Below the pieces are notes generated by a model that ran no database searches, was not told the DNA's origin, and saw nothing but the letters and a program-made list of their open reading frames with translations. Below, piece after piece: positions 4,901 through 63,921 of a DNA stretch of 64,000 bases (the stretch's first letter is position 1; each line of letters opens with the position of its first letter). The stretch is taken from NCBI GenBank assembly GCA_949317995.1, contig OX439047.1, positions 1,660,501 through 1,724,500 on the forward strand, written 5' to 3'. The translations under genes were made by a program, and so were the position numbers. The DNA is from Acholoe squamosa. Its lineage: Eukaryota > Annelida > Polychaeta > Phyllodocida > Polynoidae.

Positions 4901-7900
4901 CGTCCCGATAGCTTAGTGGTAGAGCAGCGGTCTCGAGATCTGTGGGTCCCGGGTTCATTTCCCATTTCTTTTTGTCATTTTAGTAAAGGGAGATGAGGTT
5001 GTCACCTAGGACATGTGTTAATCATCATATGAATTGATTTGATAGTCATGATCAACAGTTATTGTGGGTTCTGCAGGGGTCAGGACATACATTCATCCCA
5101 TGTTTTCTTTTAGGTCAGTCTAACGGAGTACAACGCTAAACATGCACAGTTCCGCATCATGCCCCGATACAAGGTCAAGGCCGAGGGTGACGTGGTGAGT
5201 ACAACTAGGACTTATCACCCTATATAAAGAAGCATCACTTCGTTGCTGGTCCCTAGCCCATTTGAATAAGCTTGAGTGCTTACCAGGAACAGATAAACCA
5301 AAAGAGGCTATAGATAAAAGTAGTTACTTTTTTCAAAATTAACTCCATTTTTCTCAAAACTTCAAGAATTTCAATATTTTAAGGTACCCCTATTCAATAG
5401 AGCTGCTTCTGATTGACCAAATTGGAGGATTTGAAAGCAAATAACATTTACACAATGCCTCAAGATCATCATGGTTATTTTTTTCTGCAATGTCTGTCAT
5501 CTTGGATCCCGATTCAAAGGAATTGGTGCCCGCCCTGATGTAAATAATGCGTGAAACCGTAGATTTGTATTACCTATACTGGGAGCTTTAATTTGATTGG
5601 TCACACCTTCACATCGGACCATTAGTTCAAGAGAACTTACTGAAAAACTGACAAACATTATTCTATACTTGTAGGTCCAAGTGTTGGACCAGATTGTGCT
5701 ATATAACACTATACGATACTTGTAGGTCCAAGTGTTGGACCAGAAAGAGCTATATAACACTATACTATACTTGTAGGTCCAAGTGTTGGACCAGATTGTG
5801 CTATATATAACACTATACTATACTTGTAGGTCCAAGTGTTGGACCAGATTGTGCTATATATAACACTATACTATACTTGTAGGTCCAAGTGTTGGACCAG
5901 AAAGAGCTATATAACACTATACTATACTTGTAGGTCCAAGTGTTGGACCAGATTGTGCTATATATAACACTATACTATACTTGTAGGTCCAAGTGTTGGA
6001 CCAGATTGTGCTATATATAACACTATACTATACTTGTAGGTCCAAGTGTTGGACCAGATTGTGCTATATATAACACTATACTATACTTGTAGGTCCACGT
6101 GTTGGACCAGATTGTGCTATATATAACACTATACTATACTTGTAGGTCCACGTGTTGGACCAGATTGTGCTATATATAACACTATACTATACTTGTAGGT
6201 CCACGTGTTGGACCAGATTGTGCTATATATAACACTATACTATACTTGTAGTTCCAAGTGTTGGACCAGATAGTGCTATATAACACTATACTATACTTGT
6301 AGGTCCAAGTGTAGGGCCAGATTGTGCTATATAACACTATACTATACTTGTAGTTCCAAGTGTTGGACCAGATAGTGCTATATAACACTATACGATACTT
6401 GTAGGTCCAAGTGTTGGACCAGATAGTGCTATATATAACACTATACTATACTTGTAGGTCCAAGTGTTAGACCAGATAGTGCTATATAACACTATACTAT
6501 ACTTGTAGGTCCAAGTGTTGGACCAGATAGTGCTATATAACACTATACTATACTGTAGGTCCACGTGTTGGACCAGATTGTGCTATATAACACTATACTA
6601 TACTTATAGGTCCAAGTGTTGGACCAGATTGTGCTATATAACACTATACTATACTGTAGGTCCAAGTGTTGGACCAGATAGTGCTATATATAACACTATA
6701 CTATACTTGTAGGTCCAAGTGTTGGACCAGATAGTGCTATATATAACACTATACGATACTTGTAGGTCCAAGTGTTGGACCAGATAGTGCTATATAACAC
6801 TATACTATACTTGTAGGTCCAAGTGTTGGACCAGATAGTGCTATATATAACACTATACTATACTTGTAGGTCCAAGTGTTGGACCAGATAGTGCTATATA
6901 TAACACTATACGATACTTGTAGGTCCAAGTGGAGGACCAGATAGTGCTATATTACACTATACTATAGTTGTAGGTCCAAGTGGAGGACCAGATTGTGCTA
7001 TATATAACACTATTCTATACTTGTAGGTCCAGGTGTTGGACCAGATAGTGCTATATAACACTAAACTATACTTGTAGTTCCAAGTGTTGGACCAGATAGT
7101 GCTATATATAACACTATACGATACTGTAGGTCCAAGTGTTGGACCAGATAGTGCTATATATAACACTATACGATACTTGTAGGTCTAAGTGTTGGACCAG
7201 ATAGTGCTATATATAACACTATACTGTACTTGTATGTCCAAGTGTTGGACCAGATTGTGCTATATAACACTATACTATACTGTAGGTCCACGTGTTGGAC
7301 CAGATAGTGCTATATAACACTATACTATACTTGTAGGTCCAAGTGGAGGACCAGATAGTGCTATATATAACACTATACGATACTTGTAGGTCCAAGTGTT
7401 GGACCAGATAGTGCTATATAACACTATACTATACTTGTAGGTCCAAGTGTTGGACCAGATAGTGCTATATAACACTATACGATACTTGTAGGTCCAAGTG
7501 TTGGACCAGATAGTGCTATATATAACACTATACTATACTTGTAGGTCCAAGTGTTGGACCAGATAGTGCTATATTACACTATACTATACTTGTAGGTCCA
7601 AGTGTTGGACCAGATAGTGCTATATATAACACTATACTATACTTGTAGGTCCAAGTGTTGGACCAGATAGTGCTATATTACACTATACTATACTTGTAGG
7701 TCCAAGTGTTGGACCAGATAGTGCTATATATAACACTATACTATACTTGTAGGTCCGAGTGTTGGACCAGATTGTGCTATATATAACACTATACTATAGT
7801 TGTAGGTCCAAGTGTTGGACCAGATTGTGCTATATATAACACTATACTATACTTGTAGGTCCAAGTGTTGGACCAGATTGTGCTATATAACACTATACGA

Positions 7901-63921: not shown

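Follow-up and report, generated by a model that had tools for sequence, protein, structure and literature searches.

An ITPR-like gene of a probable annelid carries tandem arrays whose units are copies of its own splice junctions. The gene was found in a window, the whole 64,000-nucleotide stretch analysed here, which corresponds to C13:1660501-1724500 of a 1.48-Gb assembly of 63 contigs. The junction arrays are real and lie well beyond chance, and their class is already known: a sequence-only reading of the window knew of no named class for them, but such structures have been called mirages (PMC3087553, PMC3902484). We give a probability of roughly 0.85 to the reading that the arrays are mirages, that is, minisatellites founded by a short tandem duplication across an exon-intron boundary, spliced out and nearly neutral. 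Their units contain exon and intron in the orientation of the adjoining junction, the true junction is terminal, and the splice dinucleotide is retained in the majority of copies; such duplications recur at 11 boundaries of the gene, and two further genes show them too. New to us are the host, probably an annelid, the density of 11 boundaries in one gene, and the lengths of the arrays.

The Host Gene

Judged by its sequence, the host gene is ITPR-like (IP3 receptor); it lies on the + strand and is partial in the window. Spliced alignment to human ITPR1 places it at 1840..62756 (+), and its assembled peptide matches the Pfam families RYDR_ITPR (1e-27), Ins145_P3_rec (9e-21) and MIR (6e-16). When a few of its exon pieces were compared with the PDB, weak matches to ITPR1 were all that came up. 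At its 3′ end the gene reaches to about 116289 in window numbering, and the window covers approximately the first third. The exons aligned within the window, all on the + strand, are 1840-1926, 4683-4760, 5114-5194, 9517-9620, 10097-10184, 13764-13851, 14154-14261, 15535-15680, 18725-18892, about 19262-19386 (start uncertain), 23453-23584, 24019-24077, 25804-25930, 48525-48647, 49834-49938, 52134-52247, 55087-55158, 55740-55872, 56169-56281, 61184-61326 (weak) and 62627-62756. The exon lists obtained with such guide proteins are incomplete. For this gene 50-52 exons were used in the tests, a total of 65 is a guess, and arrays classed as lacking exon sequence may adjoin exons missing from the list.

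A pore-region protein query matched the genome at 24 places, which by our own grouping belong to this gene and to some ten other loci of ITPR/RyR-like type. This expanded set lies on C1, C3 (four loci), C5 and C12 (three), and at C13:46.4 Mb.

Junction Arrays Within the Window

TRF recovers all the arrays that the sequence-only reading had placed in this gene. Five of them were said to be built from an adjoining junction, and this holds for four. The first, at 5654..9540 (+), is an acceptor-junction array of 75 units of 50-53 bp that adjoins exon 9517-9620, as seen by TRF, unit counts and BLAST. Each unit consists of the end of the intron, the AG and 24 nt of exon start; the AG is intact in 72 of the 75 units, and exonic identity to the true junction is 0.886. 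A second acceptor-junction array, at 16952..18757 (+), has 30 units, mostly of 48-62 bp, and takes in 33 nt from the start of exon 18725-18892. Here the AG is intact in 24/30 units and exonic identity is 0.846. By eye, the edge unit at 17139-18757 differs from the consensus, the true unit reading GAGAAAGAC and the consensus GAGTAGGAC.

The other two are donor-junction arrays. At 52215..54710 (+), adjoining exon 52134-52247, 58 units of about 42-44 bp each combine 33 nt of exon end with GTAAGT(ATGTA). Every unit retains its GT (58/58), exonic identity to the true junction is 0.977, and 56 of the 58 consecutive donor copies score alike under a simple matrix. The array at 62741..63402 (+) has a 31-bp unit composed of 16 nt from the end of exon 62627-62756 and 15 intronic nt. 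Counting a far copy, 62741-63482 holds 23 units, with GT intact in 22 and an exonic identity of 0.951. This far copy, at 63417..63478 (+), is a diverged, longer copy of the exon end, with about 57 exonic nt followed by GTAC in local alignment. Its 61 aligned columns are mostly exon and match more of it than the 31-bp unit does, and it may be what is left of a larger duplication from which the array began. A single extra donor-junction copy, also noticed earlier as belonging to the ninth exon, is present at 14226..14433 (+), where the donor of exon 14154-14261 recurs 107 bp downstream.

When unit consensus sequences were compared by BLAST with 51 exons of the gene (with 20-nt flanks), each of the four arrays matched its own exon, with E values of 1e-11 (5654-9540), 1e-8 (16952-18757), 2e-24 (52216-54710) and 9e-17 (62741-63482), against a best E of 0.31-0.63 for other exons of the gene. 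The comparison of consensus units with exon ends, which had been named as the check to make, thus comes out better than chance for these four, in BLAST as in the 14-mer test below. In all four the true junction sits at the exon-proximal end, as the last unit of both acceptor arrays and the first unit of both donor arrays.

The fifth candidate, a 48-bp array at 14638..15533 (+), was attributed to the tenth exon and is ruled out as a junction array. It merely abuts the acceptor of exon 15535-15680 and holds no exonic sequence (TRF, BLAST). Its consensus has no BLAST match to that exon; in 15 parsed units, identity averages 0.425 across the 8 nt at the start of the exon, and the AG is absent in 11/15.

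Junction Duplications Beyond the Window

The same gene contains five more junction duplications downstream, at 64473-64643, 70771-71034, 76164-76265, 79007-79406 and 83620-83721 in window numbering. A sixth, at 116393-116482, duplicates a donor, with an alignment that takes in 69 exonic and 21 intronic nt; the 116304 duplication has 5 mismatches in junction scoring and is recognised by alignment alone. Over the whole gene, 11 boundaries are duplicated, comprising 7 donors and 4 acceptors. The array at 70771-71034 does not include the true junction and stops about 65 nt short of the true acceptor. At 79007-79406, two copies carry GAGTAAGT and five of the seven carry GAGGAAGT, in which the donor is lost; for the donor near 79025, mismatch scoring used position 79029 and BLAST position 79015. 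Recurrent boundary duplication with an intact exon-proximal junction, as proposed from the window, is therefore found in this gene and is what would be expected if splicing hides the copies. Farther downstream of the gene, at about 128000-164000 in window numbering, open frames resemble LTR retroelements by eye.

Arrays Without Exon Sequence

Seven other arrays in the window were compared with the 51 exons, and none had a match better than E 0.07. These include, with no strand assigned, a 45-bp array at 1..1354 (beginning at -567) with no exon match, a 32-bp array at 1981..2143 that lies 55 nt past a donor and has no convincing exon match (E 0.32), a 52-bp array at 27518..29545 for which no exon match is listed, and a 94-bp array at 50712..50986 (best exon match E 0.26). 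A 28-bp array at 19400..23342 begins 14 nt past the donor at 19386, with a best exon match of E 0.07. The array holds the reverse complement of 11 nt at about 19252-19262, beside the beginning of the preceding exon; with an E value of 0.07 this inverted match is perhaps due to chance. The largest array occupies 18.5 kb of one intron at 29608..48139, with 348 copies of a 51-bp unit, a best exon match of E 0.13, and TRF periods of 109 and 160 bp as well.

The earlier proposal that introns lengthen by junction amplification is accordingly overstated. Array DNA summed over 12 arrays in the window amounts to 36.1 kb, of which 8.9 kb is junction array and about 75%, the 18.5-kb array included, is without exon sequence. 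The 18.5-, 3.9- and 2.0-kb arrays (29608-48139, 19400-23342 and 27518-29545) all belong to the latter group. A short GGGGGGGTCAGAATTTTTTC repeat also occurs in both orientations at 10591-10675, 25330-25416 and 55351-55436, and looks like part of an interspersed element.

Recurrence and Placement of Junction Sequence

Exon-terminal 14-mers from 50 exons were searched for, allowing at most one mismatch, in the intron next to each exon end and on the side where a junction copy should lie. They recur for 3/50 acceptors and 4/50 donors, versus 0 and 0.0004 for wrong exon/intron pairs. For 80942, one of these acceptors, the match is a single near copy at 80470, outside the called junction arrays. 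The threshold is strict and misses several of the 11 duplicated boundaries, and 3 mis-set boundaries are left in the list of 50. Per position, recurrence over the first 10 nt is 26/500 at 5′ ends and 39/500 at 3′ ends, reaching 0 within 30 nt of the 5′ end and within 50 nt of the 3′ end. Wrong-side matches are absent from 5′ ends; 3′ ends have 13, each lying 30-50 nt from the end. Chance resemblance is ruled out by this recurrence together with the BLAST matches of units to their own exons.

TRF rows show the same separation. Among the 42 rows in the gene, the ten junction arrays show 0-2 mismatches in their best 12-14 nt match to exon-terminal or junction sequence, and the remaining rows, with the 116304 duplication (scored 5) among them, show 3-6; one row has no boundary in range, and 4 mis-set boundaries are left in this scoring. 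For a test of random placement, the rows were reduced to 37 arrays by merging four pairs and dropping one row past the gene end, with the 116304 duplication entered as non-junction. Ten of the 37 arrays include a junction, where random placement expects 1.85 with 104 boundaries (P 2.4e-5) or 2.31 with 130 (P 1.5e-4). The figures are 5/16 within the window (0.89-1.12 expected; P 0.002-0.006) and 5/19 beyond it (0.92-1.15 expected; P 0.003-0.007).

This excess, 10 versus about 2, is larger than neutrality with wholly random placement predicts, unless the arrays date from a time of much shorter introns. It favours a first alternative to our reading, in which splice junctions are hotspots for tandem duplication, for instance through co-transcriptional R-loops, breaks or slippage at GT/AG-rich sequence, and junction arrays arise more often for that reason. 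However, the null is built on present-day array-free intron length, and the excess shrinks if introns were formerly shorter: with introns half as long the expectation rises to 3.7-4.6 and P to 0.005-0.02.

Other Genes and Genome-Wide Motif Counts

Junction arrays are also found in two other genes. An exon of an acyl-CoA dehydrogenase (ACAD) gene on C1, identified by PF02770 at 9e-9 and above the family cut-off, carries a donor-junction array of 6.1 copies of 51 bp. Because a donor pattern led to it, this array tells us that such cases exist, but not how often. An MFS-transporter-like gene, about 64 kb past the end of the ITPR-like gene and on the opposite strand, bears an acceptor-junction array of 5.3 copies of 80 bp; its MFS_1 match of 1.8e-5, obtained with a peptide joined by hand from two open frames, is below the family cut-off.

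In the 14-mer test, no exon-end copies were detected for 24 clathrin exons (three further exons, L035 and L036, stood outside the test) or for 13 exons of a partly sampled Na/K-ATPase gene; a small number of the aligned ends in this housekeeping set are not true splice sites. ITPR paralogues, sampled at four loci with 10 exon pieces, gave no copies either. With no copies in 37 and 10 tested exons or pieces, the rate is not uniform, and the 0/37 in the clathrin and Na/K-ATPase genes speaks against a general hotspot. The sampled part of the Na/K-ATPase gene leaves out its tandem-exon part, C18:30684370-30691749. In this alpha-subunit gene, query residues at about 127-180 are matched at six tandem places in C18:30685941-30690485, with 63-85% identity to the human query. 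These matches suggest a tandem exon cluster, perhaps of mutually exclusive exons, and with six matches to one exon the gene is not free of duplication.

Donor motifs in triplet were counted across the genome. Three AGGTAAGT motifs at 28-58 bp occur in 2553 rows, versus 1006 for the reversed motif; triplets of AAGGTAAGT at 29-59 bp occur in 245 rows versus 29, and triplets of AAGGTGAGT in 241 versus 105. As single motifs in 264 kb, the reversed forms are not rarer (AGGTAAGT 7 versus 11 reversed, AAGGTAAGT 1 versus 3), and the row counts are thus in line with a hotspot. They are, however, dominated by a few large arrays. Counted as distinct arrays among the matches listed, AAGGTAAGT gives 12 versus 4 reversed (to C13:70.7 Mb; P 0.04) and AAGGTGAGT 12 versus 9 (to C8:29.1 Mb; P 0.33), or 24 versus 13 when pooled, again among the matches listed and counted by eye (one-sided P 0.049). 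Arrays defined by donor motif alone are spread over the genome in modest excess. Seven or eight AGGTAAGT-triplet arrays lie on C1 and early C2 among the matches listed, and two were inspected: L042 is the ACAD exon, and L041 consists of array throughout and includes no flanking sequence. The genome-wide scan suggested earlier is thus answered in part, by a slight surplus of donor-motif arrays alongside the clean housekeeping exons. Taken with the counterevidence on intron length and distinct arrays, we regard a junction hotspot as unlikely.

Origin and Maintenance of the Arrays

Under the mirage reading, a tandem duplication spanning the boundary would create a second complete splice junction. 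Exon definition would then keep the junction nearest the exon body in use, which is the first unit in donor arrays and the last in acceptor arrays, and the extra copies would be removed with the intron, leaving the mRNA normal. Such a duplicate would be nearly neutral and could grow and homogenise as any minisatellite does, probably by unequal exchange or slippage, while selection would hold the terminal true unit alone. The spliced product predicted for the array-bearing gene has precedents. Mirage-bearing amphioxus genes yield regular mRNA by RT-PCR, and together with Adh3 data this suggests that splicing is undisturbed (PMC3087553). In human CBS with the 68-bp insertion 844_845ins68, the upstream segment is spliced away and the mRNA is normal (PMC2630376).

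The arrays may instead have been selected for a function, as redundant splice sites, as dual-specific AG|GT sites or in regulated alternative splicing, with polyubiquitin as a comparison. The splice dinucleotides are mostly kept, completely so in the 58-unit array, and the ACAD array reads open through its first four copies. An AGGT site can serve as either a donor or an acceptor, and introns with such sites are enriched in tandem-repeat genes (PMC10809524). Dinucleotides would nonetheless persist in young, homogenised copies even without selection. Periods of the junction arrays show no triplet bias, as 7/10 are not multiples of 3 (53, 107, 62, 44, 31, 56 and 41, against 51, 60 and 39), which is about what an absence of coding constraint gives. 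Both open frames of exon 52134-52247, read beyond the true donor, stop in the first unit. The lack of triplet bias and the presence of stops lead us to reject the arrays as coding repeats, and stops, non-triplet periods and the lost donors at 79007-79406 leave no sign of a coding or regulatory role. Selection for function is accordingly very improbable. Finally, long tandem arrays are difficult to assemble, but a false tandem expansion is very unlikely: the units are non-identical (in the four window arrays their exonic part is on average 0.85-0.98 identical to the true junction), and the same anatomy is seen in duplications of 2-3 copies. Chance matching is excluded by the recurrence and BLAST tests.

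Relation to Known Mirages

Mirages are so far known from cephalochordates and have been described in amphioxus as minisatellite-like duplications across the intron-exon boundary in Adh3 and the globin genes BflGb6 and BflGb9 (PMC3087553), and also in troponin C and PGBD5 (PMC3902484). They share with the ITPR-like gene tandem units that span the boundary, on the donor or the acceptor side, with AG/GT in many. Units of exon and intron with a splice site are found in four window arrays and in the ninth-exon copy, and not at 14638-15533; both exon ends are affected, and the true junction is at the cluster edge, with 70771-71034 as an exception. The length of amphioxus mirages varies between haplotypes and somatically, edge units escape homogenisation, and a role in intron gain has been proposed (PMC3087553). 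Scale and host differ. Amphioxus globin mirages have 3-6 units of 150-160 bp and Adh3 units are 10-72 bp (PMC3087553), whereas the ITPR-like gene has 11 affected boundaries, with an array that reaches 75 units and a length of 3.9 kb, and its host is probably not a cephalochordate.

Comparable structures exist elsewhere. The CBS 68-bp insertion repeats the intron-7/exon-8 acceptor region. A VNTR in the same human gene, c.1444_1467+7, has 16-21 copies of a 31-bp unit that by its notation contains 24 exonic and 7 intronic nt, an anatomy like that of the junction arrays here (PMC2630376); unlike the 11 boundaries of the ITPR-like gene, the CBS repeats are isolated polymorphisms in one gene. In human segmental duplications, minisatellite expansion at exon-intron boundaries alters introns, with 27 intron modifications reported in recent paralogues and averages of 30-bp units and 4 repeats (PMC2812944). 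Among annelids, intron 1 of an earthworm metallothionein gene holds a 10-19 kb minisatellite, a large intronic array as in our window, although the accessible part of that source describes no splice junction within it; at another metallothionein locus, exon-4 duplications are absent from the final transcript (PMC12783039). Among the titles and abstract openings listed from the open-licence literature, none concerned junction arrays in an annelid.

The mitochondrial contig C63 (15,641 bp) bears on the host. Its COX1 codons fit code table 5, with AGA as S in 3/5, ATA as M in 15/19, AAA as K in 5/9 and TGA as W in 13/14, and this table alone would not exclude a cephalochordate. The gene order is nd2 - cox1 - trnN(gtt) - cox2, followed by a trnD-like stretch recognised by eye, which we take to be the annelid order. 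Profile matches support COX2 (2e-63) and an nd2 of NuoN type (2e-12, below the model cut-off).

Implications

It is possible, though doubtful, that this lineage, probably annelid, uses splice junctions as preferred birthplaces of minisatellites, with duplication either biased to exon-intron boundaries or preferentially kept there, a route of intron growth convergent with that of cephalochordates. Single genes would then carry at least ten junction arrays, and a single intron could hold decoy splice sites by the dozen, all of equal strength. More securely, the ITPR-like gene probably extends mirages to another phylum and offers an unusually dense natural case, with 58 consecutive donor copies in one intron. 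How the splicing machinery chooses among near-identical sites becomes testable in one gene, as does the question of whether duplications across junctions truly make introns grow or are no more than neutral debris.
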